Source: Gillisia lutea
GTDB lineage: Bacteria; Bacteroidota; Bacteroidia; Flavobacteriales; Flavobacteriaceae
DNA length: 64,000 nucleotides
Assembly: GCF_021568705.1 (NCBI RefSeq)
Contig: NZ_JAKGTH010000009.1
Location: forward strand, 62,001 to 126,000
Direction: 5' to 3'
Part shown: piece by piece, positions 5,339 through 60,715 of the stretch
How positions within the stretch are numbered: the stretch's first letter is position 1
Layout of the letters: each line of letters begins with the position of its first letter
Notes under the pieces: generated by a model
The model's database searches: none
Seen by the model: only the letters and a program-made list of their open reading frames with translations
Told to the model about the DNA's origin: nothing
Program-made: the position numbers and the translations under genes

Positions 5339-6472
5339 ATGAAAAAGATACAAATGGTTGACCTTCAAGGTCAATATAAACTTATTAAAGATCAAATCAA
5401 TAATTCTTTTGATGAGATCATGCAATCTTCGGCATTTATCAACGGACCGGAGGTTCAGAATTTTCAAAAGGAATTAGAGGAATATTTAGGTGTTAAACAT
5501 GTAATACCTTGTGCTAATGGTACCGATGCGCTTCAAATTGCAATGATGGGGTTAGGGTTACAGCCAGGGGATGAGGTTATTACGGTAGATTTTACTTTTG
5601 CGGCAACGGTAGAGGTTATTGCGTTATTGCAATTAACCCCTGTCTTGGTAGATGTAGAGCCAGATACTTTCAATGTAGATCCTGAAGCTATTAAAAAAGC
5701 AATTACTCCTAAGACCAAGGCTATAGTTCCTGTGCATTTATTTGGGCAAACAGCCAATATGGATGCTATCATGGAAATTGCAAAGGCTCATAATTTATAT
5801 GTTATTGAAGATACCGCGCAGGCGATTGGTGCCGATTTTCACTCGAAAGAAGGAAAAACCTATAAGGCCGGGACCATAGGAGATGTTGGTTCAACTTCAT
5901 TTTTCCCTTCTAAGAACTTAGGCTGTTATGGAGATGGTGGTGCTATCTTTACAAATAATGATGAGCTGGCTCATACTATTCGCGGAATAGTAAATCATGG
6001 TATGTATGAAAGATATCATCACGATGTGGTGGGAGTGAATTCCAGATTAGATAGTTTGCAGGCAGCGGTATTACGTGCAAAATTGCCAAATCTTGATATG
6101 TATAATGAAGCCAGAAAGGATGCATCTCTAAAATACGATAAGGCTTTTGCAGGGCAGGAGCATATAATTGTGCCGTTTCGCTCAGGTGATTCTGATACGC
6201 ATGTTTTTCATCAATATACTCTTAAAATTACCAATGGGAAACGAGATGCTTTGGTGAAACATTTGAATGAAAATAATATTCCTTGTGGAGTTTATTATCC
6301 AATTCCATTGCACAGCCAAAAAGCTTATAAGGATTCTAGATATAATGAAGCCGATTTCCCGGTGACTAACCAATTGGTGAAAGATGTGATCTCTTTGCCT
6401 ATGCATACCGAATTGGAAGATGATCAAATTGACTTGATCACTAAAACCATTATCGATTTTGTGAATGACTAA
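5339..6472 (+). CDS. DegT/DnrJ/EryC1/StrS family sugar aminotransferase
   Basis: 377 residues, typical for PLP-dependent sugar aminotransferases. ANGTDALQIAM is the cofactor phosphate-binding segment, VIEDTAQAIGA contains the Asp that contacts the pyridine ring, and FPSKNLGCYGDGGA holds the Schiff-base lysine. It probably aminates a nucleotide-linked keto-sugar for LPS, capsule or protein glycosylation. Standing next to waaA is compatible with an LPS role, but no other sugar-biosynthesis genes surround it and the substrate cannot be read from sequence. Confidence 0.9.
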   Translation: MKKIQMVDLQGQYKLIKDQINNSFDEIMQSSAFINGPEVQNFQKELEEYLGVKHVIPCANGTDALQIAMMGLGLQPGDEVITVDFTFAATVEVIALLQLTPVLVDVEPDTFNVDPEAIKKAITPKTKAIVPVHLFGQTANMDAIMEIAKAHNLYVIEDTAQAIGADFHSKEGKTYKAGTIGDVGSTSFFPSKNLGCYGDGGAIFTNNDELAHTIRGIVNHGMYERYHHDVVGVNSRLDSLQAAVLRAKLPNLDMYNEARKDASLKYDKAFAGQEHIIVPFRSGDSDTHVFHQYTLKITNGKRDALVKHLNENNIPCGVYYPIPLHSQKAYKDSRYNEADFPVTNQLVKDVISLPMHTELEDDQIDLITKTIIDFVND

Positions 6473-42795: not shown

Positions 42796-42828
42796 TTTGG
42801 ATACTAAGTTTTTCTGTCGTTAAATTTG
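42796..42828 (+). promoter_or_regulatory. Promoter of the metY operon
   Basis: TTTG at 42796-42799, 21-base spacer and TAAATTTG at 42821-42828. Transcription would start near 42832, about 16 bases before the first leader ORF. Confidence 0.65.
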
Positions 42829-42847
42829 TGAAATACAAAACAAGAAA

Positions 42848-42916
42848 ATGAATCAAGTAATGTGCAATATGTGTATGATGATGTGGGGAAAACCTGCAGC
42901 GGACGCTATTGCATAA
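42848..42916 (+). CDS. Leader peptide 1 of the metY operon, Met/Cys-rich (22 aa)
   Basis: A 22-codon ORF that begins about 16 bases after the predicted transcription start. Residues 1-12 read MNQVMCNMCMMM and the tail WGKPAADAIA. Seven of the first twelve codons are ATG or TGT/TGC in one run, far beyond chance. The GC-rich codons 17-19 (42896-42902, GCAGCGG) are perfectly complementary to bases 42942-42948 of the terminator that follows. A ribosome stalled in the Met/Cys run for lack of charged tRNA would leave GCAGCGG free to pair there and block the terminator. A ribosome reaching the stop would cover it. This is the classic layout of amino acid attenuators. No protein function is expected beyond translation itself. 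Confidence 0.8.
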   Translation: MNQVMCNMCMMMWGKPAADAIA

Positions 42917-42937
42917 CACTTAACTTATAAGATTTGC

Positions 42938-42966
42938 AAAGCCGCTGCCACCCGCAGCGGCTTTTT
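42938..42966 (+). terminator. Attenuator terminator 1 of the metY leader
   Basis: AAAGCCGCTGC paired with GCAGCGGCTTT, loop CACCC, then Ts. The 3' arm repeats the same GCAGCGG that is present inside leader ORF 1, so the two copies compete for one 5' arm. Confidence 0.85.
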
Positions 42967-43002
42967 GCGTTTTTAGAATTAAAGAATATTAGAATAATAA
43001 TT

Positions 43003-43101
43003 ATGATCACCAACCCGGCAATACAAAATATGATGTGTGGAATGATGCAAATGTGTATGATGTACGCAACAAACCGCTATTGCCAAAAAATTAGGATATA
43101 A
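43003..43101 (+). CDS. Leader peptide 2 of the metY operon, Met/Cys-rich (32 aa)
   Basis: A second ORF, 32 codons, between the two terminators. Residues 10-20 read MMCGMMQMCMM, again almost only Met and Cys; the start is MITNPAIQN and the end YATNRYCQKIRI. Codons 26-32 contain TTGCCAAA (43080-43087), perfectly complementary to TTTGGCAA of the next terminator (43135-43142); GGAT (43094-43097) can also pair with ATCC (43130-43133). These segments lie about 18 bases past the last Met codon of the run and directly before the stop codon, so only a stalled ribosome leaves them free. Same design as leader 1, different sequence. Confidence 0.78.
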   Translation: MITNPAIQNMMCGMMQMCMMYATNRYCQKIRI

Positions 43102-43128
43102 ATTAGTTTATATAGTTCAATTCTAAAA

Positions 43129-43163
43129 GATCCCTTTGGCAAGCAAGCTGAAGGGATTTTTTT
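43129..43163 (+). terminator. Attenuator terminator 2 of the metY leader
   Basis: An 11-base stem, ATCCCTTTGGC with GCTGAAGGGAT (two GT pairs), loop AAGCAA, followed by seven Ts, 54 bases before metY. Confidence 0.85.
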
Positions 43164-43216
43164 ATTTCTAAAAAACCGAAGAAAATAAAATAATAACACA
43201 TTAAAACTTTTCAATT

Positions 43217-44509
43217 ATGAGCACTCAACAATTTTCAACAAACGCATTACATGCAGGTCATGACGTAACCACTAATGGAGGAACTCGCGCAGTTCCAATT
43301 TACCAAACCACTTCTTACGTATTTAAAGACTCTGATCATGCTGCAAATCTTTTTTCACTAGCTGAGCCGGGATTCATTTATACCCGTATTAATAATCCTA
43401 CAAACGATATTTTGGAACAACGGCTCGCCGCTCTAGAAGGAGGAATTGCGGCAGTTGTAACAGCGTCGGGAACCGCAGCTATTAATACTACATTGCTTAC
43501 ATTGCTAAAATCTGGTGATCATATAGTAGCTTCTAGTAGTTTATATGGCGGCACTTACAATTTATTGAGTGTTACGCTACCTCGATTTGGAATCACCACC
43601 ACTTTTGTAGATCCTTCTAATCCCGAAAATTTTGAAAAAGCAGCAAAGGGGAATACTAGGGCCTTCTTTATTGAATCTCTTGGAAATCCTAAATTAGATG
43701 TGCTGGATATTGCGGCAATTTCCACACATGCGAAAGCGCATAAAGTACCGCTTATTGTAGATAATACCGTGGCTACTCCGGCATTGCTGAACCCGATTGA
43801 ACATGGGGCAGATATAGTGATACATTCTCTTACCAAATATATAAATGGAAACGGAACGGCACTAGGTGGTGTTATAATAGATGCCGGAAAATTTGACTGG
43901 GCAAATGGGAAATTTCCAGAATTTACAGAGCCTTCAGCAGGATATCACGGCTTGATCTATCATGAGGCGCTTAAAGAAGCAGCGTTTATCGCCAAGGTGA
44001 GAATTGAAGGTTTGAGAGATCATGGGGCTGCATTGAGTCCATTTAACGCTTTCCAAATTATCCAGGGCCTGGAAACCTTATCTCTTCGTATTAAGAAACA
44101 TAGCGAAAATGCACTTGCACTTGCTACTTGGTTACAGCAACAAGAAGAGGTTACTTGGGTGAATTACCCGGGATTAAAAGAAAGCACTTATTACGAATTG
44201 TCGCAAAAATATCTACCTAATGGACAAAGCGGGATTGTAACTTTTGGTGTAGAGGGAGGTTTTGATTCGGCAAAAGTTGTAGCCGATGAGACCGCGGTTT
44301 TTTCTTTGCTTGCAAATATTGGAGACACAAAATCATTGATCATTCATCCCGCAAGTACAACTCATCAGCAGCTTAACGACGAGCAACAGGAATCTACAGG
44401 AGTGACCAAAGATTTAATAAGACTTTCTGTTGGATTAGAAGATCTGGAGGACTTGAAATCTGATCTGAAACAGGCTTTTTCTAAAATAGGTAAGAGAGTA
44501 CTTCAATAG
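43217..44509 (+). CDS. metY: O-acetylhomoserine sulfhydrylase
   Basis: 430 residues, the length of MetY. It joins O-acetylhomoserine with sulfide to homocysteine. Cys/Met PLP family motifs: STNALHAGHDVTTNGGTRAVPIYQTTSYVF, SGTAAINTTLLTLL, VDNTVATPALLNPIEHGADI and the Schiff-base Lys in HSLTKYINGNGTALGG. It is the first gene of a methionine operon and sits behind two tandem attenuators. Confidence 0.95.
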   Translation: MSTQQFSTNALHAGHDVTTNGGTRAVPIYQTTSYVFKDSDHAANLFSLAEPGFIYTRINNPTNDILEQRLAALEGGIAAVVTASGTAAINTTLLTLLKSGDHIVASSSLYGGTYNLLSVTLPRFGITTTFVDPSNPENFEKAAKGNTRAFFIESLGNPKLDVLDIAAISTHAKAHKVPLIVDNTVATPALLNPIEHGADIVIHSLTKYINGNGTALGGVIIDAGKFDWANGKFPEFTEPSAGYHGLIYHEALKEAAFIAKVRIEGLRDHGAALSPFNAFQIIQGLETLSLRIKKHSENALALATWLQQQEEVTWVNYPGLKESTYYELSQKYLPNGQSGIVTFGVEGGFDSAKVVADETAVFSLLANIGDTKSLIIHPASTTHQQLNDEQQESTGVTKDLIRLSVGLEDLEDLKSDLKQAFSKIGKRVLQ

Positions 44510-44575: not shown

Positions 44576-45592
44576 ATGCTTCAGGAAATTAAGATCTCAA
44601 ATTTTAAGAATAGCTCGGGGAATTCTCAAGATATCTTTCTCACCTATCAAATTTTTGGCAGGGAATTAGGAAGTGCACCTGTTATTCTTGTAAATCATGC
44701 ACTTACCGGTAACTCATCGGTTACGGGGCCACATGGGTGGTGGAATGAAATAATTGGAGATGGAAAAAGTATAGATACTCAAAATTTTAGTGTACTCGCT
44801 TTTGATATGCCGGGAAACGGCTATAGTGGGAATTCCACTCATCTTATTCATAATTATAAGGAGTTCCAGCTTCGGGATATTGCTAAAATTTATGATGAGG
44901 CGCTAAGGATTTTAAATATTTCAGAAATTTTTGCAGGAATTGGAGGTTCTATAGGGGGTGCATTGTTATGGGAATTAGCTGCGTTAAATCCAGAGCTTAT
45001 TAAAAATGTGATTCCCGTAGCTACAGATTATAAGGTTACCCAATGGGTGAAAGCCCTTTGTAAGGTGCAGGATAGTATTCTTAATAATTCCAATAATCCT
45101 ATAAGTGATGCCAGAATGCAGGCTATGACTTTTTATCGCAGTCCGGAATCGTTAAAACAAAAGTTTGATCCTACAACTCAAATTCAGCCTAGTGGGAATT
45201 GGAATATTGAAGGTTGGTTAGAATATCACGGAAAAAAGTTGGAAGACCGCTTTCAACTTGCTTCCTATAAATTAATGAATCATTTGTTAACCACCATTGA
45301 TATAAGTAATAACACTCATGATCACATAAGTTCAGCATTAAAAATTAAAGGGAACATTCATATTGTAACGGTAAATTCTGACGGTTTTTTTCTAGCCAAT
45401 GAGAATTGGGAAAGCTATGTGAATTTATCGTTATCAAAAAAGAATATCAAGATTTCTGAAATTAGATCTATACACGGGCATGATGCTTTTCTAATTGAAC
45501 ACGCTCAAATAAAAACTATTCTAGATCCAATTTTTCACATTAATAAAAATAAACATGAAAAAGATACACATTGTTCTCTTCGGCGTGGGTAA
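44576..45592 (+). CDS. metX: Homoserine O-acetyltransferase-like alpha/beta hydrolase
   Basis: 338 residues. Alpha/beta-hydrolase: VNHALTGNSSVTGP, the nucleophile Ser in GIGGSIGGALLWELA, catalytic Asp in VTVNSDGFF and His in IHGHDAFLIE, as in MetX. It makes O-acetylhomoserine for MetY. It is slightly shorter than usual MetX and overlaps the next gene by 38 bases. A succinyl donor cannot be excluded from sequence. Confidence 0.87.
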   Translation: MLQEIKISNFKNSSGNSQDIFLTYQIFGRELGSAPVILVNHALTGNSSVTGPHGWWNEIIGDGKSIDTQNFSVLAFDMPGNGYSGNSTHLIHNYKEFQLRDIAKIYDEALRILNISEIFAGIGGSIGGALLWELAALNPELIKNVIPVATDYKVTQWVKALCKVQDSILNNSNNPISDARMQAMTFYRSPESLKQKFDPTTQIQPSGNWNIEGWLEYHGKKLEDRFQLASYKLMNHLLTTIDISNNTHDHISSALKIKGNIHIVTVNSDGFFLANENWESYVNLSLSKKNIKISEIRSIHGHDAFLIEHAQIKTILDPIFHINKNKHEKDTHCSLRRG

Positions 45593-46634
45593 CGTAGGAA
45601 GCACTCTTATCAATCAAATTTTAGAAACCCGTGCACAATGGAGGGAAAATGGATTGGAGGTTAATATTCCGGTTATCACCAATTCTACTACCGCATTCTT
45701 TGCGAAGGAAAACCTGGAAAATTCCTGGGAGACAGATTTTAAGAAATTTGGCTTTCCATATAATTTGGATAGCATTTTAAGTTATGTGAAAAAGCAGGAA
45801 TATGAAAACCTTATAGCAATTGATGCCACGGCGAGCGAAAATTTTGTGAGACATTATAAACAACTCATAAAGAACGGATTCAATATTATAGCAGCCAATA
45901 AGGCAGCAAATACGCTATCTGGTAAATTCTATAAAGATTTAAGAATCGATTTGAAACAGCAAGGAAAGTATTTTCTTTATGAGACAAACGTGGGAGCGGG
46001 TTTACCCATTATCCAAACTCTACAAAGTCTACATGCATCAGGTGAAAAAGTGACTAAGATAAGAGGAGTGTTTTCTGGTTCCCTCAGTTATATTTTTAAT
46101 GAGTTTTCAAAAGAGAATAAGGCTTTCGATGAGGTTCTAACTGATGCCGGGAATAAAGGATTTACAGAGCCCGACCCTCGTATAGATCTTTCTGGGAAAG
46201 ATGTAGCGCGAAAATTATTGATCCTGGCCAGAGAATTGGAAATTCAAAAGGAACTTTCTGAAATAAGTATTGAAGATCTGGTTCCTTCACATTTAAATGG
46301 TAAAAGTTCCCTGTCTCATTTTAAAGAACATCAGTATCAATTAAATGAAGGTTTTAGGGAGCGAAAATCTAAGCTGAAGAATGATGAGGTTTTAAGACAT
46401 ATAGGGGAGTTGGATGTAGCCAGTGGTATTCTAGAAGTGAAACTGATAAATGAAAAGAAATCATCACCTTTTGGAAGCCTTAAAAACGCAGATGCCTCTT
46501 TTGAAATATACACATCGTCTTATGGAGATCAACCCATTGTTATTCAGGGGGCAGGAGCCGGCGGGGCCGTTACAGCAAGAGGAGTGGTAGCAGATATTTT
46601 GAAATTATCAGAAAGACTAGAAGCAATAAATTAA
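45555..46634 (+). CDS. Homoserine dehydrogenase
   Basis: 359 residues, similar to the C-terminal half of ThrA/MetL. NAD(P) loop FGVGNVGSTLINQI, then NKAANTLSG, YETNVGAGLPII, GVFSGSLSYIFNEF and DVARKLLILARE. It makes homoserine from aspartate semialdehyde and supplies the metX neighbour. There is no kinase or ACT domain, so end-product control by threonine is unlikely at this copy, which may serve methionine alone. Confidence 0.93.
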   Translation: MKKIHIVLFGVGNVGSTLINQILETRAQWRENGLEVNIPVITNSTTAFFAKENLENSWETDFKKFGFPYNLDSILSYVKKQEYENLIAIDATASENFVRHYKQLIKNGFNIIAANKAANTLSGKFYKDLRIDLKQQGKYFLYETNVGAGLPIIQTLQSLHASGEKVTKIRGVFSGSLSYIFNEFSKENKAFDEVLTDAGNKGFTEPDPRIDLSGKDVARKLLILARELEIQKELSEISIEDLVPSHLNGKSSLSHFKEHQYQLNEGFRERKSKLKNDEVLRHIGELDVASGILEVKLINEKKSSPFGSLKNADASFEIYTSSYGDQPIVIQGAGAGGAVTARGVVADILKLSERLEAIN

Positions 46635-46651
46635 AAAATAGAGTTCAAATT

Positions 46652-47830
46652 ATGGAATATACCAATATAGAAACCACAGTAATTCGTACTCAGTTAGAAC
46701 GTTCTCAGTTTCAGGAGCATTCGGTTCCTTTATATTTAACCTCCAGTTATGTTTTTGAAGATTCTGAAGACATGAGAGCTTCATTTGCAGAGGAAAAGGA
46801 ACGCAATATCTATAGCCGCTTTTCTAATCCCAATACTTCTGAATTTGTAGAAAAAATGATAAAGATGGAAGGTGCGCAGGCAGGATATGCTTTTGCAACG
46901 GGTATGTCGGCTGTGTTTTCTACATTGGCGGCTCTTTTAAATAGTGGCGATCATATTATTTCGGCTAGATCAGTATTTGGATCTACTCATAGTTTGTTTT
47001 CTAAATATTTTCCGAAATGGAATATTTCTCATAGTTATTTCGATGTGACCAATTTGGATGAAATAGAAAATTTGATCACACCTACTACTAAAGTTCTTTT
47101 TGCTGAATCTCCTACAAATCCCGGGGTGGATATTCTTGCTCTTGAAAAACTGGGGAGCATAGCTAAGAAACATCAGTTAATATTAATCATCGACAATTGT
47201 TTTGCAACGCCTTATATTCAGAATCCTATAAAATTTGGAGCCGATCTGGTTATTCATTCAGCAACAAAATTGATAGATGGGCAAGGTCGGGTTTTGGGTG
47301 GTATTACTGTTGGAAAAGAAGATTTGATCAGGGAGATCTATTTATTTTCAAGAAATACCGGGCCGGCCTTATCACCTTTCAATGCCTGGATACTCTCAAA
47401 GAGTTTGGAAACTTTACCAGTACGTTTAGAGAAACATTGTGAGAATGCATTCAAGGTAGCTGAATTCCTGGAAGCACATGTGAAAACTGAAAAAGTGAAA
47501 TATCCATTCTTAAGATCACATCCTCAATATGAGATAGCCAAAAAACAGATGAGGTTAGGCGGAAATATCATTTCATTTGAGATAAAAGGGGGGATTAAAG
47601 CAGGCAGTAAATTCATTGATGCCATTCAGTTATGCTCGCGCTCGGCAAATCTTGGAGATACCCGAAGTATAGTAACGCATCCCGCATCAACAACTCATAG
47701 TAAACTTTCTGAGGAGGAGCGATTAGACGCTGGTATTACCTCTGGGCTGGTCAGGATTTCAGTAGGTTTGGAACATATAGATGATATTATTAATGATTTA
47801 AAACAGGCTTTAGAGAGGGAATCGAATTGA
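46652..47830 (+). CDS. metZ: Second Cys/Met PLP enzyme, MetZ/MetB-like
   Basis: 392 residues, shorter than MetY. Motifs: IYSRFSNPNTSEFVEKM, GYAFATGMSAVFSTLAAL, IDNCFATPYIQNPIKFGADL and the Schiff-base Lys in HSATKLIDGQGRVLGG; these resemble O-succinylhomoserine sulfhydrylase (MetZ) more than cystathionine gamma-synthase. With metY this gives two sulfhydrylases in one operon. Exact substrate is uncertain. Confidence 0.85.
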   Translation: MEYTNIETTVIRTQLERSQFQEHSVPLYLTSSYVFEDSEDMRASFAEEKERNIYSRFSNPNTSEFVEKMIKMEGAQAGYAFATGMSAVFSTLAALLNSGDHIISARSVFGSTHSLFSKYFPKWNISHSYFDVTNLDEIENLITPTTKVLFAESPTNPGVDILALEKLGSIAKKHQLILIIDNCFATPYIQNPIKFGADLVIHSATKLIDGQGRVLGGITVGKEDLIREIYLFSRNTGPALSPFNAWILSKSLETLPVRLEKHCENAFKVAEFLEAHVKTEKVKYPFLRSHPQYEIAKKQMRLGGNIISFEIKGGIKAGSKFIDAIQLCSRSANLGDTRSIVTHPASTTHSKLSEEERLDAGITSGLVRISVGLEHIDDIINDLKQALERESN

Positions 47831-47878
47831 GGGGCTAAATAAAAATGGGATAAAGTTTTTATTAATTATATTCGCCTT

Positions 47879-48286
47879 ATGCTTTCAAAAAAGACGAAAT
47901 ACGGAATAAAGGCTTTAGCATATCTCGCTAAAAGGACAGATAAAACACCTGTTCAAACCGCAGAGATCGCGAGAAGTGAAAACATCTCTCCTAAATTTTT
48001 GGAAAGCATTTTGTTGAATTTGCGTAAGTCTGGTTTTCTAGGTGCCAAAAAAGGTAAGGGAGGAGGTTATTATTTGATAAAGGATCCCAAGGAAATTCAA
48101 ATGACAAGCGTAATTCGTGTTTTAGAAGGTCCTATAGCAATGCTTCCCTGTGTGAGTTTGAATTATTATGAAAAGTGCGAGGATTGCCCTGATGAGGTAA
48201 CCTGCTCGGTACATAAATTGATGATTCAGGTAAGGGACAGTACCCTTAAAGTGTTAGGAGAAAATACATTGGCCGATCTGGCTTGA
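47879..48286 (+). CDS. Rrf2-family transcriptional regulator, candidate sulfur regulator
   Basis: 135 residues. Winged helix: VQTAEIARSENISPKFLESI, LNLRKSGFLGAKKGKGGGYY. Four Cys (91, 100, 103, 109: LPCVSLNYYEKCEDCPDEVTC) could hold an Fe-S cluster or sense redox or sulfide; spacing differs from IscR. It sits between the methionine and sulfate-assimilation operons. A promoter-overlapping imperfect palindrome downstream (48391-48415) is a candidate target. CymR-like control of cysteine metabolism is the likely role, by family and context. Confidence 0.9.
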   Translation: MLSKKTKYGIKALAYLAKRTDKTPVQTAEIARSENISPKFLESILLNLRKSGFLGAKKGKGGGYYLIKDPKEIQMTSVIRVLEGPIAMLPCVSLNYYEKCEDCPDEVTCSVHKLMIQVRDSTLKVLGENTLADLA

Positions 48287-48350
48287 TGTTACTCTACAAG
48301 AATTGTATAGTAAAGTTTACTGTTAAATTTAAGTTTTAATGCTCTATTAA

Positions 48351-48382
48351 TTGGTGTATATGAATATTGAAGATTACTTTTG
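48351..48382 (+). promoter_or_regulatory. Promoter of the sulfate assimilation operon
   Basis: TTG at 48351-48353, a 21-base spacer and TACTTTTG at 48375-48382. The predicted start near 48386 falls just before the candidate operator. Confidence 0.65.
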
Positions 48383-48390
48383 CTTAATAA

Positions 48391-48415
48391 CCTACTATTC
48401 CGATAGGGTAATAGG
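48391..48415. promoter_or_regulatory. Candidate Rrf2 operator at the start of the sulfate assimilation operon
   Basis: CCTACTATTCC, then GATA, then GGGTAATAGG. The outer arms CCTAnTA and TAnTAGG are symmetric, with an ATTCCGATAGGG core typical in kind of Rrf2-type sites. It occupies about +6 to +30, a repressing position, and the Rrf2 gene ends 104 bases upstream. Confidence 0.55.
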
Positions 48416-48432
48416 TTTAAATAAGAAATAAA

Positions 48433-48687
48433 ATGATCATGCTATTAGATCAAGTAAAAAAAAGCAATTATAAGAAGGACAGGGTTACCGACAAACCTGT
48501 ACGAAGTATACTGAAAGCTATTAGCTGGAGAGTGGTGGGAACCATTGATACTATTGGTATTTCATGGATTTTAACCGGTGAGGTGAAGACGGCTCTGGCA
48601 ATTGGTTCGGTAGAGTTAGTAACAAAAATGCTGCTCTATTTCGGGCATGAGCGAATATGGGATAAGATAAATTTTGGGAGACAATAA
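48433..48687 (+). CDS. DUF2061 membrane protein
   Basis: 84 residues. KPVRSILKAISWRVVGTIDTIGISWILTG and ALAIGSVELVTKMLLYFGHERIWDKI are the DUF2061 signature, with two membrane segments. It is commonly found next to sulfate-assimilation genes, as here as first gene of the cys operon, two bases before cysH; its function is unknown. Confidence 0.9.
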   Translation: MIMLLDQVKKSNYKKDRVTDKPVRSILKAISWRVVGTIDTIGISWILTGEVKTALAIGSVELVTKMLLYFGHERIWDKINFGRQ

Positions 48688-48689
48688 TT

Positions 48690-49319
48690 ATGAAAAAGTA
48701 TTCAGAAAGTGAGTTAAAGGCACTTAACCAACAATTTAAAGGTATTAGTCCATCAGAAATAATTCAGTGGGCTGTAAAAAGCAGTGATCGGCCGGTGGTA
48801 ACTACAAACTTCCGTCCTTACGAGGCCGCTATTTTAAATGCATGTACTAGAATCGATCCCAAAATGACGGTAGTGTGGTGCGATACAGGGTATAATACAC
48901 CTCAAACATATCTACATGCAAATTCTGTAATTGATAAGTTAGATCTAAATGTGAAGCTTTACACACCTCAGCAAACCGCAGCCTATAGAGATGCGTTGTT
49001 TGGGGGTATTCCACAAATTGATAATCCCTTACATGATGAGTTTACGAAGCAAGTAAAATTGGAGCCTTTTCAACGTGCCATGGCAGAACAGCAGCCCGAT
49101 GTTTGGTTTACCAATCTAAGAAAAGGTCAAACAGCTTTTAGGGATAGCATTGAAATTCTAAGCTATAGTAAAGATGGAGTTTTAAAGGTTAGTCCATTCT
49201 ATCACTGGACCGATGAGCAATTAGACAGTTACTTGTTGCAGAATAATTTACCCAATGAATTTAAATATTTTGATCCCACAAAAGTACTAGGGAACAGAGA
49301 GTGTGGTTTACATGCATAA
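48690..49319 (+). CDS. cysH: Phosphoadenylyl-sulfate reductase (thioredoxin type)
   Basis: 209 residues. VVTTNFRPYEAAILNACTRI, VVWCDTGYNTPQTY, FTNLRKGQTAFR and the catalytic ECGLHA at the very end. The CC...CxxC cysteines that hold the 4Fe-4S cluster of APS reductases are absent, which by the accepted rule suggests a preference for PAPS. No APS kinase (cysC) gene is present in this operon. Confidence 0.9.
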   Translation: MKKYSESELKALNQQFKGISPSEIIQWAVKSSDRPVVTTNFRPYEAAILNACTRIDPKMTVVWCDTGYNTPQTYLHANSVIDKLDLNVKLYTPQQTAAYRDALFGGIPQIDNPLHDEFTKQVKLEPFQRAMAEQQPDVWFTNLRKGQTAFRDSIEILSYSKDGVLKVSPFYHWTDEQLDSYLLQNNLPNEFKYFDPTKVLGNRECGLHA

Positions 49320-49329
49320 AAATAAATAC

Positions 49330-50229
49330 ATGAAGAAGATTTTAGAAAATAACGTCTTAGAGAGTGAAGCTATCTATATTTTTCGTGAAGTAGTAGCTCA
49401 ATTTGAAAATCCGGTACTCCTATTCTCGGGAGGAAAAGATTCTATCACTTTGGTAAGACTGGCACAAAAAGCATTTTTTCCTGCAAAAATTCCTTTTCCA
49501 TTATTACATATAGACACTGGGCATAATTTTCCTGAAACAATAGCATTTAGAGATAAACTAGTAAAAGAATTAGAGCTAAATCTTATAGTTCGACATGTGC
49601 AGGAGAATATCGATAATGGGACAGTAACAGAAGAAACCGGAAAATATTCTAGCAGAAATTCTTTACAAACAGCTACGCTACTAGATGCTATAGAAGAATT
49701 CAAATTTGATGCCTGTATTGGTGGAGCTAGAAGAGATGAAGAGAAAGCGAGAGCAAAAGAACGAATTTTTTCTGTGAGAAATGATTTTGGAGAATGGGAT
49801 GAAAAGAATCAAAGACCAGAAGTTTTCGATATGCTGAATGGAAGAATTGAACTAGGTCAGAACGTAAGGGTTTTTCCAATTTCTAACTGGACAGAACTTG
49901 ATGTCTGGAATTATATAGATAAAGAAAATATTGAAATACCCTCAATATATTTCTCTCATCTAAGAGAAATCTTTGAACGTGACGGCTTAATATGGTCTGC
50001 TTCCCAACATGTATATCGAGATGAAGACGAACTTGTAGAAAAGAGAAAAGTGCGATTTAGAACTGTTGGTGATATTACTTGTACTGCTGCAGTAGAGAGT
50101 GAGGCAGATAGTATTGATAGAATCATCGAGGAGATTAGAGCATCTACTTTATCGGAGCGTGGCGCTCGTATAGATGATAAAAGATCGGAAGCTGCTATGG
50201 AAACAAGGAAACAACAAGGTTATTTTTAG
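49330..50229 (+). CDS. cysD: Sulfate adenylyltransferase subunit 2
   Basis: 299 residues from the ATG at 49330 (the frame can be extended to a GTG at 49303 inside cysH, which is less likely). PP-loop LLFSGGKDSITLVRL, HIDTGHNFPETIAFRD, GGARRDEEKARAKERIFS and RFRTVGDITCTAAVESEA. It activates sulfate with ATP in complex with the GTPase CysN. Confidence 0.97.
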   Translation: MKKILENNVLESEAIYIFREVVAQFENPVLLFSGGKDSITLVRLAQKAFFPAKIPFPLLHIDTGHNFPETIAFRDKLVKELELNLIVRHVQENIDNGTVTEETGKYSSRNSLQTATLLDAIEEFKFDACIGGARRDEEKARAKERIFSVRNDFGEWDEKNQRPEVFDMLNGRIELGQNVRVFPISNWTELDVWNYIDKENIEIPSIYFSHLREIFERDGLIWSASQHVYRDEDELVEKRKVRFRTVGDITCTAAVESEADSIDRIIEEIRASTLSERGARIDDKRSEAAMETRKQQGYF

Positions 50230-50288
50230 AACAAATCAATTTAGGTAATTTCTAAAAATGAAAATAAAAAGTAATTAAGAATACAAGA

Positions 50289-51533
50289 ATGGAAGTTTTA
50301 AAAATAGCGACAGCAGGAAGTGTAGATGATGGTAAAAGTACCCTAATTGGGCGATTGCTTTATGATACCAAATCTATTACTACCGATAAGCTTGAAGCCA
50401 TCGAAAAGAGTAGTAAAAAGAAAGGTTACGATTATCTAGATTTTTCTCTTGCAACCGATGGGTTAGTGGCTGAACGCGAACAGGGAATTACAATAGATGT
50501 AGCACATATCTATTTTTCTACAAATAAAAAAAGCTATATAGTAGCCGATACTCCCGGTCATATTGAATATACTCGTAATATGGTAACCGGTGCATCTACC
50601 GCTCAGGCATCAATTATTTTGATAGATGCTAGAAAAGGGGTGATAGAGCAGACCTATCGTCACTTCTTTATAAATAATCTGTTACGCGTTAAAGAGATCG
50701 TAGTAGCTATCAACAAAATGGATCTTGTAAATTATTCACAAAAGATATTTGATGAGATTGTAGGAGATTTTAAAGAGCTTCAGAGAAAAAGTGAGTTTAA
50801 GGATCAAACCATAAAATTTATTCCCGTAAGTGCTTTGTGGGGTGAGAATATAGCTAACAAATCTGAGGCAATGCCTTGGTATACAGGAGAGACTATTCTT
50901 CAGTATTTAGAAGGTTTAAGATCTGAAGATTTTAATGAAGTTACTCCAGCCAGATTTTCGGTTCAAACAGTTGTTCGTCCTAAAAGTGAATCTCATCACG
51001 ACTTTAGGGGCTATGCTGGTAGAATTACCGGGTCTTCTTTTAAAGTGGGCGATGAAGTAACTATCCTTCCATCTTTAACATCATCAACAATTGAAAAGAT
51101 TCATTTTTTCGATGAAGAGTTTGAGGAAGCGCCTGCAGGAAGTTCGGTTACAATTACTTTAACAGATGAAGTAAATGTTACAAGAGGGGATATCATTGTG
51201 AAATCTGGAGAAGCCCCTGAAGGAACAAAATCGCTGAATGCAGTGGTTTGCTGGATGGATATGAAGGCTTTGCAACCTGGAACAAAGTATATCCTTCAGC
51301 ATAATACACAGAATATGGCGGTAAAAATAGATGCAATACACGAAAACATTTCTACCGATTATAGTGGGAATTCAATCGTTTCATCCTTGAAATTGAACGA
51401 TATAGGAAAAGTTGGACTTAAGCTAAGTAAGCCTTTATTTGCCGATGCATACAAAAATAATAAGGCCAATGGTAAATTCATTTTAATAGATGCACATACT
51501 AATAATACCGCCGGTGCAGGGTTTATTATTTAA
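50289..51533 (+). CDS. cysN: Sulfate adenylyltransferase subunit 1 (GTPase)
   Basis: 414 residues. GTPase motifs: TAGSVDDGKSTLIGRLLYD, ADTPGHIEYTRNMVTGAS and INKMDLV. The length shows CysN alone without a fused APS kinase. The stop codon is followed after only four bases by the third Met/Cys-rich leader ORF. Confidence 0.97.
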   Translation: MEVLKIATAGSVDDGKSTLIGRLLYDTKSITTDKLEAIEKSSKKKGYDYLDFSLATDGLVAEREQGITIDVAHIYFSTNKKSYIVADTPGHIEYTRNMVTGASTAQASIILIDARKGVIEQTYRHFFINNLLRVKEIVVAINKMDLVNYSQKIFDEIVGDFKELQRKSEFKDQTIKFIPVSALWGENIANKSEAMPWYTGETILQYLEGLRSEDFNEVTPARFSVQTVVRPKSESHHDFRGYAGRITGSSFKVGDEVTILPSLTSSTIEKIHFFDEEFEEAPAGSSVTITLTDEVNVTRGDIIVKSGEAPEGTKSLNAVVCWMDMKALQPGTKYILQHNTQNMAVKIDAIHENISTDYSGNSIVSSLKLNDIGKVGLKLSKPLFADAYKNNKANGKFILIDAHTNNTAGAGFII

Positions 51534-51537
51534 AAAT

Positions 51538-51600
51538 ATGATCAATTTAACTTCTATAAAATCATGTTATATGTGTATGTGCAGTGTGCCTTACACCTAA
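51538..51600 (+). CDS. Leader peptide 3, Cys/Met-rich (20 aa), inside the cys operon
   Basis: A 20-codon ORF starting four bases after cysN: MINLTSIKS, then CYMCMC, then SVPYT. Five of six consecutive codons are TGT/TGC or ATG. The bases ACACCTAAAAG (51593-51603), which include the stop codon, are complementary over 11 positions with one mismatch to CTTTTAAGTGT in the 5' arm of the next terminator (51634-51644). Ribosome stalling at the Cys/Met codons would allow that pairing and readthrough into sulfite reductase; completed translation covers the segment and allows termination. It is the third case of the same design in this window, and the one with most cysteine, fitting its sulfite-reductase target. 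Confidence 0.75.
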   Translation: MINLTSIKSCYMCMCSVPYT

Positions 51601-51625
51601 AAGCTATTTCTATAAATTTATTTAT

Positions 51626-51666
51626 AAAAAGTCCTTTTAAGTGTCTCACTTTAAAAGGACTTTTTT
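51626..51666 (+). terminator. Attenuator terminator 3, between cysN and sulfite reductase
   Basis: AAAAAGTCCTTTTAAGTG paired with CACTTTAAAAGGACTTTTT (one bulged T), loop TCT, T run. An intrinsic terminator in the middle of a same-strand operon makes sense only if read through conditionally. Confidence 0.87.
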
Positions 51667-57006: not shown

Positions 57007-58023
57007 ATGTCAAAATTAGAAGATTTACTCTCAAAAAAAATACTAATATTAGATGGTGCCATGGGCACGATGCTTCAGGAATATAAATTCTCAGAAGAAG
57101 ATTTCCGTGGAAGGAGGTTTGCAGATTGGCATTTATATTTAAAAGGAAATAACGATCTACTGTCTATCACTCAACCACATGCCATTGCCGAAATTCATCG
57201 TAAATATTTTTTGGCGGGGGCAGATATTGTAGAAACCAATACTTTCTCTGCTAATACTATTGCCATGGCCGATTATGGCATGGAGGAGCTGGTGTATGAA
57301 CTCAATTATGAGTCGGCTAAAATAGCCAAACAAGTGGCTCTAGAATTAACATTAGAAACTCCGGAAAAACCCAGATTTGTGGCAGGAGCTATGGGTCCTA
57401 CCAATAAAACAGCGAGCATGTCGCCAGATGTGAATGATCCTGGCTATAGAGCTATTTCCTTTAAGCAACTTTTTACCGCATACAAGCAACAGGCAAAAGC
57501 GCTTATAGACGGAGGAGTTGATATATTACTTGTAGAAACAGTTTTCGACACCTTAAATGCAAAGGCTGCACTTTTTGCCATTGATGAATTGAAGGAGGAA
57601 CTCAATTCTAATATTCCTGTCATGATAAGTGGAACAATTACCGATGCTTCCGGGAGAACCCTTTCCGGGCAAACGGCTGAGGCATTTCTTATTTCTATAT
57701 CACATATTCCTTTACTAAGTGTGGGCTTCAATTGTGCGCTGGGAGCAAAACAACTTACTCCGCATCTAGAAGTGCTGGCACGTAAAAGTAATTTTGGAGT
57801 TTCGGCTTATCCAAATGCCGGGCTACCTAATGCCTTTGGGGAATATGATGAAACTCCGCAGGAAATGGCAGAACAAATTCGGGAATATCTTGAAAAAAGT
57901 TTGGTCAATATTTTAGGGGGCTGTTGCGGCACTACCCCGGCACATATTAAAGCCATTGCCAAAATAGCTGAAGATTACAAGCCTAGAATTCTTAAAGATC
58001 AACTTAATCCTGAAACAGTTTAG
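57007..58023 (+). CDS. metH: Methionine synthase, homocysteine-binding part
   Basis: 338 residues. [24 protein letters not shown] at the start. Zinc ligands: the Cys in [13 protein letters not shown] and the two Cys in [13 protein letters not shown]. It corresponds to the first domain of cobalamin-dependent methionine synthase; the rest is encoded by the next gene, 4 bases on, in another frame. A two-gene MetH is a known arrangement in Bacteroidota. The SAM-I riboswitch is in its leader. Confidence 0.95.
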
Positions 58024-58027
58024 TAAA

Positions 58028-60715
58028 ATGACAGAATTTAAAGCACTAAAACTTTCGGGCTTAGAACCACTCATTATAACGCCGGAAAGTAATTTCGTGA
58101 ATGTGGGAGAACGCACAAATATGTCCGGCTCCAAAAAATTTCTCCGACTTATAAAGGAAGAAAAATATGAAGAAGCCTTAGATATCGCCAGAAATCAGGT
58201 TGAGGAAGGAGCCCAGATTATCGATGTGAATATGGATGATGGATTGGTAGATGGAAAAGAAGCTATGGTAAAATTTCTAAATCTAATAGTATCTGAGCCT
58301 GATATTGCAAGAGTTCCAATAATGATCGATAGTTCTAAATGGGAGATTATCGAGGCCGGATTACAGGTGGTTCAGGGAAAATGCGTTGTGAATTCTATCA
58401 GTTTAAAGGAAGGAGAAGAAGAATTTATCAAACATGCCAAAAAAGTAAAGCGCTATGGAGCAGCTGTGATAGTGATGGCTTTTGATGAAATAGGACAAGC
58501 CGATTCTTATGATCGAAGAATAGAAATTGCAAAGCGTTCTTACCAGATCCTTGTCGATAAAGTGAAATTTCCACCCGAAGACATAATTTTTGATCTCAAT
58601 ATTTTTCCGGTGGCTACGGGAATGGAAGAGCACCGCAAAAATGCGTTAGATTTCATTGAAGCTACCAAGTGGGTGAAAGCAAATTTACCGCATTGCAGTA
58701 TAAGCGGTGGGGTGAGTAATGTATCTTTTTCATTTAGAGGAAATAATCCTGTGCGAGAGGCCATGCATTCCGTATTTCTTTATCATGCTATTAAAGCAGG
58801 TATGAATATCGGGATTGTAAACCCGGCGATGCTTGAAGTTTACGATAATATTCCAAAGGATTTATTAGAACATGTGGAAGATGTAATCCTGGATAGAAGA
58901 GATGATGCTACCGAGCGATTACTAACTTTTGCAGAAACCGTTACCGGTAGTATCAAGGAAAATAAAATAGATCTTTCCTGGCGTGAAAAAAGTTTGCAAG
59001 AACGCATAACCCATGCCATGGTGAAAGGTGTTGATGCATATATTATTGAAGATGTTGAAGCAGCTAGATTAGAAGTAGCTAAACCTATTGAAGTGATTGA
59101 AGGACCGTTAATGACAGGTATGAATGTGGTAGGCGATCTTTTTGGAAGCGGTAAGATGTTCCTGCCACAGGTGGTAAAATCGGCTAGAGTAATGAAAAAA
59201 GCAGTTGCTTATTTACTGCCTTTTATAGAAGCAGCGAAAGATGGAACTACTCAAAGCAGAGCAGCGGGTAAAATTTTAATGGCCACCGTAAAAGGGGATG
59301 TTCACGATATTGGAAAAAATATCGTGAGCGTGGTATTGGGCTGTAATAATTATGAGATCATCGATCTTGGAGTAATGGTTCCTCCCGAGAAGATCATCGA
59401 GGTTGCCAAAACTGAAAATGTTGATGCAATTGGCTTAAGCGGACTCATAACTCCCTCCTTAGATGAAATGGTGTATCTGGCAAAGGAGATGCAACGACAA
59501 AATTTTACGGTTCCTTTATTAATTGGTGGCGCAACAACCTCTAAGGCACATACCGCGGTAAAGATCGATCCTCACTATAAAAATGCCGTAATTCATGTGA
59601 ATGATGCATCTCGAGCGGTAAATGTGGTGAATGATCTTTTAAAAGAAAGCTCTTCAAAGAAGTACCTGGAAGCTATTAAATTAGACTATGATATTTTTAG
59701 AACCAACTTTTTAAAGCGCAGTAAAGTGAAGGATTTTCTTCCCATAGATGTTGCGAGAGAGAATAAATATCAGATCAACTGGAAGACTTCAGAAATTATA
59801 AGACCTAATAAATTGGGAATTCAGGTAATTGAAGATTTTGATCTGAAGAAATTGGAAGATTTTATAGATTGGACGCCTTTCTTTAGAAGCTGGGATCTGC
59901 ATGGGAAATATCCTGCAATACTTTCAGATGAGATAGTGGGCGAACAGGCCAGTATATTATTTGCCGACGGCCGGGAATTATTACATAAAATTTTTGATCA
60001 AAAATTGCTCAAAGCTAAGGCTGTCTTCGGATTGTTTGAAGCAAATGCAATAAATAATGATGATATAGAACTTGAGTATTTAAAAGAGGGCAAAGCAAAG
60101 AAAGCAGTATTTCGAACGCTTAGACAACAGCTGAAAAAGCATGAAGGCAAACCAAATTTTGCTCTATCAGACTTTATAGCGCCAAAAGAATCGGGAATTC
60201 AGGATTATATAGGGTGTTTTTGTGTGAGTGCCGGTTTTGGAACTCAGGAACTGGCTGCTAAATTTGAGGCCGAACATGACGATTACAACTCCATAATGGT
60301 AAAAGCACTAGCAGATAGACTTGCAGAGGCTTTTGCCGAATTCCTTCATAAACAAGTAAGAACGGAAGATTGGGGATATGCGGGTGATGAGCATCTTAGT
60401 AATGAAGATCTTATAAAAGAAAGTTATAAAGGAATTCGCCCGGCGCCGGGGTATCCGGCATGTCCAGATCATTTAGAAAAATTGACAATTTGGGAAGTTT
60501 TAGGAGTGGAAGAAACAATATCAGTAAAACTTACCGACAGTCTGGCCATGTGGCCTGCTGCGAGCGTTAGTGGGTATTATTTCGGAAATCCTGAAGCTAG
60601 ATATTTCGGCTTAGGAAAGATCAAATCCGATCAGGTGAAGGATTTCGCCAACAGAAAAGAAATAAGTGTAGAAACCGCCGAAAAGTGGTTAAATCCTGCA
60701 ATTGCAGATCAATAA
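58028..60715 (+). CDS. metH: Methionine synthase, folate-, B12- and activation-domain part
   Basis: 895 residues. Folate domain: [47 protein letters not shown]. Cobalamin domain: [21 protein letters not shown] with the His that ligates cobalt. Activation domain: [15 protein letters not shown] with SAM-binding residues. It methylates homocysteine using methyl-B12 regenerated from methyl-tetrahydrofolate, with the Hcy domain supplied by the gene before it. Confidence 0.97.

Follow-up and report, generated by a model that had tools for sequence, protein, structure and literature searches.

Tandem Met/Cys-rich leader ORFs before metY in Gillisia lutea: very likely leader-peptide attenuators that stand where relatives carry SAM riboswitches

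The trp, his, leu and thr leader-peptide attenuators of Proteobacteria form the common background to this kind of regulation, and are also spoken of in PMC2965389. In these attenuators a leader ORF with regulatory codons and an intrinsic terminator precede biosynthetic genes, and the RNA can pair between segments 1 and 2, 2 and 3, or 3 and 4. Cysteine leader peptides are described before cys operons in Actinobacteria (PMC1262725), where sulfur genes are preceded by a short ORF that contains several Cys codons in a row, and no conserved terminator hairpin is reported for the Mycobacterium cases. SAM-I (RF00162) and SAM-II (RF01726) riboswitches, as is generally known, sense SAM directly. Within the phylum of the locus studied here, strong clues of leader-peptide attenuation before amino-acid operons were given for Flavobacterium psychrophilum (PMC9723704) and leader-like sORFs for Bacteroides thetaiotaomicron (PMC7366714), and no amino acid is named in the relevant sections of either paper. 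The words "methionine" and "metY" are absent from the main text of PMC9723704; an entry in its supplement remains possible. In the open-licence literature that we searched, which did not cover that supplement, no Met/Cys leader-peptide attenuator is described in Bacteroidota. It is also known that T-boxes or riboswitches are swapped with leader peptides for the same genes (PMC2965389), and sensor exchange is therefore an established theme.

The metY locus of Gillisia lutea lies in a window of 64,000 nucleotides (the whole stretch of DNA that was analysed) and carries two tandem units that share with the proteobacterial attenuators a leader ORF with regulatory codons, an intrinsic terminator and biosynthetic genes downstream; the first unit also shares the 1:2, 2:3 and 3:4 pairings. 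The metY units differ from these attenuators in that Met and Cys codons are used together, the host belongs to the Flavobacteriaceae, two unlike units stand in series, the second unit has no 1:2 pairing, and the position of the units is occupied by a SAM riboswitch in relatives. Compared with the cysteine leaders of Actinobacteria, the metY units have strong terminators and antiterminators, and Met is their main residue. SAM-I and SAM-II riboswitches are found before the same gene in relatives and thus share the position of the leaders, but the metY units contain leader ORFs and show no aptamer match, either in the window or in leader-carrying relatives. We consider it very likely that the metY run is under the control of two consecutive transcription attenuators of the ribosome-mediated, leader-peptide type, a conclusion that rests on sequence and comparison only, with no transcript or ribosome data. 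In all likelihood the mechanism is the one already known and the amino-acid specificity and the design are new, the regulation itself being inferred. Methionine, with cysteine, would then join the leader-peptide attenuators, in a phylum whose usual device before these genes is a SAM riboswitch.

All features in the window lie on the plus strand. The predicted promoter (42797..42828) is a sequence fit to the Bacteroidetes sigma-A consensus taken from PMC9723704, with TTG at 42797-42799, a 21-nt spacer and TAAATTTG at 42821-42828. Leader ORF 1 (42848-42916) reads MNQVMCNMCMMMWGKPAADAIA up to its stop codon, is rich in Met and Cys, and has homologues in relatives. Segment 1 of this unit, TGTGCAATA (42861-42869), lies inside the Met/Cys run and pairs with TATTGCATA at 42907-42915. 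Segment 2 (42896..42915) consists of GCAGCGG (42896-42902) plus TATTGCATA, and its partner is either segment 1 or segment 3. Segment 3 (42935..42948), TGCAA plus CCGCTGC, serves as both the terminator 5' arm and the antiterminator 3' arm. GCAGCGG is complementary at 7/7 positions to CCGCTGC (42942-42948), and an extra short helix joins TTGCA (42909-42913) to TGCAA (42935-42939). Terminator 1 (42938..42966) has an 11-pair stem at 42938-42964 and a T-run to 42966, and 42936-42975 folds at -21.9 kcal/mol (z -5.75). Leader ORF 2 (43003-43101), which reads MITNPAIQNMMCGMMQMCMMYATNRYCQKIRI up to its stop codon, is again rich in Met and Cys. The 5' strand of the unit 2 antiterminator (43080..43097), which changes jointly with its partner in relatives, comprises TTGCCAAA at 43080-43087, paired 8/8 with 43135-43142, and GGAT at 43094-43097, which pairs with ATCC at 43130-43133; the GGAT part was read by eye only. 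Terminator 2 (43125..43163) has a 16-pair stem at 43125-43162, which contains the antiterminator 3' strand (43130-43142), and a T-run to 43163; 43126-43168 folds at -19.0 kcal/mol (z -4.40). The original prediction had named the tandem leader ORFs, the terminators, their complements and the promoter, and all of them held, with every coordinate, when the sequence was re-examined; it had overlooked the TGTGCAATA/TATTGCATA pairing and the TTGCA/TGCAA helix.

The first structural gene is metY (43217..44509), encoding O-acetylhomoserine/O-acetylserine sulfhydrylase (TIGR01326, 639.8 bits, cut-off 495.1). The rest of the gene run (44576..51533) comprises a metX-like gene, homoserine dehydrogenase, a Cys/Met PLP enzyme, an Rrf2 regulator, two PAPS-reductase-family genes (cysH and cysD type) and a cysN-type GTPase. 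By protein family matches these downstream genes belong to Met and Cys synthesis, and from strand and spacing they are inferred to share one operon with metY.

Both strands of the 64 kb were scanned for ORFs with an ATG start, 12-60 codons and at least six Met/Cys in 10 residues. Exactly two ORFs meet this threshold, both before metY, and the mean in 20 dinucleotide shuffles was 0.05 per window (0 at threshold 7); at threshold 5 the window has 4 ORFs and the shuffles 0.5. One alternative is that these ORFs encode small functional Met/Cys-rich proteins, such as metal-binding ones, that stand by chance before metY with ordinary terminators. Met/Cys-rich peptides can indeed bind soft metals. However, the leader ORF peptides have no NCBIfam match at E ≤ 0.001, and this reading predicts neither the joint change of ORF end and terminator arm nor the exchange with SAM-I riboswitches, both described below, so that it is practically ruled out. 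It could also be argued that the units are a translation-independent riboswitch or T-box-like RNA in which the ORFs are incidental, and SAM riboswitches are in fact common at the same place in relatives. Against this, an Rfam search of the window at gathering thresholds found no known RNA within the units and no T-box, reporting only SAM and SAM-II, and few columns of the leader are as well conserved as those of Met/Cys; we regard this explanation, too, as all but excluded. Covariance models of unit 1 (R1) and unit 2 (R2) found no further strong unit copies in the same genome, where the next hits (32.8 and 38.7 bits) lie at genes with, by eye, no sulfur link. R1 and R2 also miss the third unit described below, and other leaders elsewhere in the genome therefore remain possible.

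A MetY search of 199 family genomes gave 137 matching at E ≤ 1e-60, and 170 metY loci were examined (30 loci, 60 further upstream stretches and 80 loci from a second contig set). Judged by MetY, the closest named relatives of the window's genome belong to Gillisia. Met/Cys ORFs were flagged in 53 of the 170 upstream regions, with both ORFs in 38 loci; among the 53, L089, L153 and L077 were set aside, the last being later matched by R1, and L036 and L078 are duplicates. Tandem homologous units precede metY in Gillisia, Salinimicrobium, Salegentibacter, Christiangramia/Gramella and Flavobacterium. R1 reaches 45 bits or more in 37 of the 397 genomes of the family, with a background of hits at about 30-45 bits; three of the 37 appear to be chance matches and one more is doubtful. 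The hits of 45-48 bits in G054, G237 and G331 were taken as chance, as no Met/Cys ORF is present there and no met gene was seen by eye, and the hit in G253 (49.9 bits) stands before metY without an ORF at the Met/Cys threshold. The unit 2 model finds 20 of the 397 genomes at E ≤ 1e-6, and G108 and G142 have the unit 1 ORF without a unit 2 model match. In a phylum sample, 21 of 395 genomes gave hits, all in the same family; every genome listed there belongs to the Flavobacteriaceae, so the distribution outside the family is unsettled. Of 55 distinct homologous loci, 48 have the motif TAnnTTTG in the 60 nt that precede unit 1 (versus 8.9% of random 69-nt windows), and none of 38 tandem loci has it before unit 2. 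Units 1 and 2 are therefore probably carried on one transcript.

Alignments were made of 38 of the 42 unit 1 stretches (A1) and 40 of the 44 unit 2 stretches (A2); L092-L094, which are close to L091, were left out of both, and the wrongly cut L154 and L022 out of A1 and A2, respectively. The automatic terminator search erred on the unit 2 hairpin in three loci (L022, L046 and L083), and for unit 1 of L025 it chose an improbable pairing; all four cases were kept in the counts. The permutation tests use one representative per distinct core and ignore relatedness. For the unit 1 antiterminator, with 18 distinct cores among 56 distinct units, the cognate score is 16.9, compared with 13.9 for permuted partners (0/10000 as good). 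Its partner cores include GCAGCG/CGCTGC, GCAGAGG/CCTCTGC, GCAGGG/CCCTGC, GCAAGGGC/GCCCTTGC and GCGAAGGC/GCCTTTGC, and 13 of 10000 permutations are as good for the second short helix (TTGCA/TGCAA in the window). On A1, 84% of the antiterminator cells pair and 9 cells are changed on both sides (0/500 shuffles); all of these changes fall in a single pair, and the count of covarying pairs is reached by 480/500 shuffles. L206 is without the expected unit 1 pairing, and L137 and L205 have five pairs only. The unit 2 antiterminator scores 19.6, compared with 16.8 when permuted (0/10000; 25 distinct cores), and shows both-side changes in 5 pairs (12/500 shuffles) and 17 cells (0/500). Taken singly, the antiterminator complements are weak, with a base-shuffle p ≤ 0.05 in 35/56 unit 1 and 32/44 unit 2 cases. 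In terminator 1 (37 distinct sequences) 99.7% of cells are paired, with both-side changes in 3 pairs (46/500) and 18 cells (0/500); in terminator 2 the figures are 97.2%, 7 pairs (6/500) and 66 cells (0/500), the pair types being not above shuffles (471/500). The terminators, the alternative pairings and their joint change are thus shown by sequence and comparison.

The protector pairing of unit 1 (segments 1:2) is also conserved. It is paired in 89.7% of cells, 5 pairs have both-side changes compared with 1.2 in shuffles (0/500), and none of 10000 permutations is as good; the variants TGC/GCA, TGT/ACA and TAC/GTA keep the pairing. Single protector pairings are weak (p ≤ 0.05 in 11/55). No such 1:2 pairing was found in unit 2, where the cognate score is below the permuted mean and 9924/10000 permutations are as high, and this negative result indicates that the method does not find pairing everywhere. 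When ten unit 1 leaders were folded before the terminator 3' arm, the Met/Cys run (TGYAATA) paired with the ORF end (TATTRCA) in several of them, the window included, and the antiterminator was the best fold in L002, L130, L204 and L209. The antiterminator is predicted at a probability of at least 0.5 in 40/44 unit 2 versus 22/58 unit 1 sequences. As the terminators are mostly predicted to be more stable than the antiterminators, read-through needs the order of synthesis. The comparison, without expression data, supports unit 1 as a trp-type four-segment attenuator with a conserved protector pairing and unit 2 as one without a protector. The claim that only a stalled ribosome exposes the complement fits unit 1, where the protector pairing hides the segment otherwise; in unit 2, folding predicts that RNA without translation also leaves the complement unpaired. 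The attenuator interpretation itself is supported, since the alignment with relatives' metY leaders shows that, from genus to genus, the Met/Cys codons, the segment at the ORF end and the terminator arm are either kept or altered jointly; the response to Met/Cys supply is inferred, as there are no RNA-seq or ribosome profiling data. That two units would give steeper control has no support either way, and the units, which differ in design, may do different jobs.

Conservation of the Met/Cys codons is likewise shown by the comparison. Among 54 distinct unit 1 peptides, two run positions hold 21 Met to 19 Cys and 15 Met to 31 Cys. Pooled over columns that are at least 60% Met/Cys, unit 1 has 85 Cys versus 17 residues one base from ATG, and unit 2 has 145 versus 45; these counts include columns where Cys itself is the rule. 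The codons of Met and Cys differ at all three bases, and their exchange therefore speaks for selection on "Met or Cys". Unit 1 keeps an almost constant spacing: counted from the first base of the last Met/Cys codon, segment 2 begins 15 nt downstream in 39/56 units, and the distance from its start to the end of the stop codon is 21 nt in 36/56. Given the known size of the ribosome footprint, a ribosome stalled at the last codon of the run would leave segment 2 just free, and one at the stop codon would cover it, so that the spacing fits. It is not fixed in unit 2, where 17/44 cases have a Met/Cys codon, usually the RYC cysteine, no more than 10 nt from the pairing segment; from this spacing we infer that a stalled ribosome would cover part of the pairing segment in those cases.

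The codon data bear on two further explanations. In a TnaC-like nascent-peptide arrest, the Met/Cys-rich peptides would detect a ligand such as Met or SAM from within the ribosome tunnel, and the codons would matter as peptide and not as tRNA demand. The conserved residues at the ORF ends (SAAxxIA; RYCQKxRI) favor this view. However, these residues fall within the pairing segments and vary in step with the partner RNA strands, Met and Cys interchange at two positions, and the length and order of the run vary; we consider peptide arrest very unlikely. The units might instead sense general translation, or the supply of initiator Met-tRNA, and not elongator Met/Cys-tRNA. In favor of this, the unit 1 protector pairing is expected to switch the unit off without translation, unit 2 being without a protector. 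Such sensing would not need Cys codons, yet Cys is conserved or exchanged for Met, and this explanation is also improbable to a high degree.

In the preferred reading, attenuation by ribosome stalling, translation of the leader ORFs, stalling, the change in read-through and the amino acids as signal are all inferred. A single promoter would give a transcript whose first ORF is rich in Met/Cys codons. When charged Met-tRNA or Cys-tRNA is short, the ribosome would stall in the run and cover segment 1, leaving segment 2 free for segment 3; the terminator (3:4) would be blocked and RNA polymerase would continue. When both charged tRNAs are plentiful, the ribosome would reach the stop codon and cover segment 2, and the terminator would form. 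Unit 2 would then repeat the decision with its own Met/Cys ORF; as it has no protector pairing, its predicted default without a ribosome is read-through. A bolder reading combines a two-gate circuit of opposite defaults with repeated replacement between SAM-I and leader within one family; the gate defaults are predicted, and we offer this reading tentatively, inclining slightly against it. Unit 1, with four segments, would be shut without translation and open only while a ribosome stalls in the Met/Cys run, and unit 2, with three segments, would be open without translation and shut only when a ribosome completes the ORF. If this is true, two such gates in series would permit expression of the genes when Met/Cys is moderately short and not when translation initiation fails, which is a special problem for Met as the initiator, and lineages could switch the signal read for one set of genes from SAM to charged tRNA and back. 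The tandem device, with its two different internal designs, is open to piece-by-piece testing in laboratory flavobacteria.

In an Rfam scan of 120 metY loci, with positions and strands read by eye from tables, 94 leaderless loci comprise 83 with SAM-I in sense before metY, 3 with SAM-II and 8 with neither; no SAM-I was found before metY in the 26 leader carriers, or in 17 further metY carriers scanned. When loci with an identical last 100 nt are removed, SAM-I is present in 81 of 92 distinct leaderless loci versus 0 of 41 with leaders. On the strength of R1 matches, L097, L101 and L102 are counted here among the leader carriers. L089, which has SAM-I, was counted as leaderless despite a flagged TTG-started ORF, because neither R1 nor R2 matches in sense upstream of its metY. 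The two models were applied to 52 loci and not to every leaderless locus; the remaining ones are classed as leaderless by the ORF scan. The remark that SAM aptamers are the textbook answer in this phylum was thus apt, as SAM-I occupies the same place in most leaderless relatives. A MetY tree, built by a quick method with 39 of 119 inner branches well supported, has 125 rows (68 leader, 50 SAM-I, 4 none and 3 SAM-II; not every leader row was Rfam-scanned). The best tree requires at least 8 changes between leader and SAM-I, and 11 for all four states; the well-supported branches alone force 4-5. The leaders of L194, of L006, and of L198 with L210 lie inside groups that are otherwise SAM-I. The case added here to sensor exchange, SAM-I versus Met/Cys leader, is supported by this comparison and amounts to a natural experiment, in which one family has orthologous genes under either a SAM sensor or a putative sensor of Met/Cys-tRNA, the metY tree implying repeated exchanges.

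Upstream of metX, genome G143, which has no metY match, carries a unit 1 leader and then a SAM-I aptamer (L195, 1269-1623, minus strand). This arrangement could be a hybrid or an intermediate of sensor exchange, and an extra promoter between leader and aptamer is possible. A third solution is seen at about 2885-2945 in L057, L058 and L063, where SAM-II and not SAM-I lies in sense directly before metY. The genome of the window has SAM-II before metK and SAM-I before a split metH and metF. The split methionine synthase lies in the window at 57007-60715 behind a SAM-I riboswitch, apparently as parts of 338 aa (family match) and 895 aa (by eye).

A third leader and terminator (51538-51666), missed by the original prediction and Cys-richer than units 1 and 2, lies between the cysN-type gene and a sulfite reductase gene. 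Its ORF (51538..51600) reads MINLTSIKSCYMCMCSVPYT up to the stop codon, with 3 Cys and 3 Met including the start. The candidate antiterminator (51593..51644) pairs ACACCTAAAAG (51593-51603) with CTTTTAAGTGT (51634-51644) at 10/11 positions, by eye and without statistics. Terminator 3 (51626..51666; 16 pairs, -16.7 kcal/mol) stands directly before sulfite reductase (51687). This unit would probably act likewise, inside the run. A like leader ORF was found in 4 of 32 sulfite reductase loci, namely L256 (the window's own), L215 (the same genus), and L224 and L257 (genus g101); in the remaining 28 loci no such ORF was flagged over a distance of 260 nt. A dependence of the Cys codons on sulfite reductase was considered and is unsupported: G111 and G031 carry leaders without a sulfite reductase match (E ≤ 1e-100).

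Unit 1 can also be found before other genes. It precedes a serine acetyltransferase-like gene and cysK in L254 (protein family matches), metX in L216 and L225, and a relative of the window's third PLP gene in L224 (both by eye). In L223 (257-3533) it stands before a TonB-dependent receptor gene, which is followed by unit 2 and metY (protein family matches); the receptor may import a sulfur compound. L215 (genome G309) has a second R1 hit of 83.8 bits at 6321-6440, where a unit 1 copy that is poor in Met codons and has none for Cys precedes a second homoserine dehydrogenase gene, and it is possible that this leader travelled with a duplication. In L253 (6235-6474, minus strand), two Met/Cys-rich ORFs, MKNNRQNNMNKMRNMMCCKHYLWNELA and MKTLHHNEMCHKSCRCMKMRLCCC, precede two transporter-looking genes, and a terminator-like hairpin (by eye) follows each ORF.
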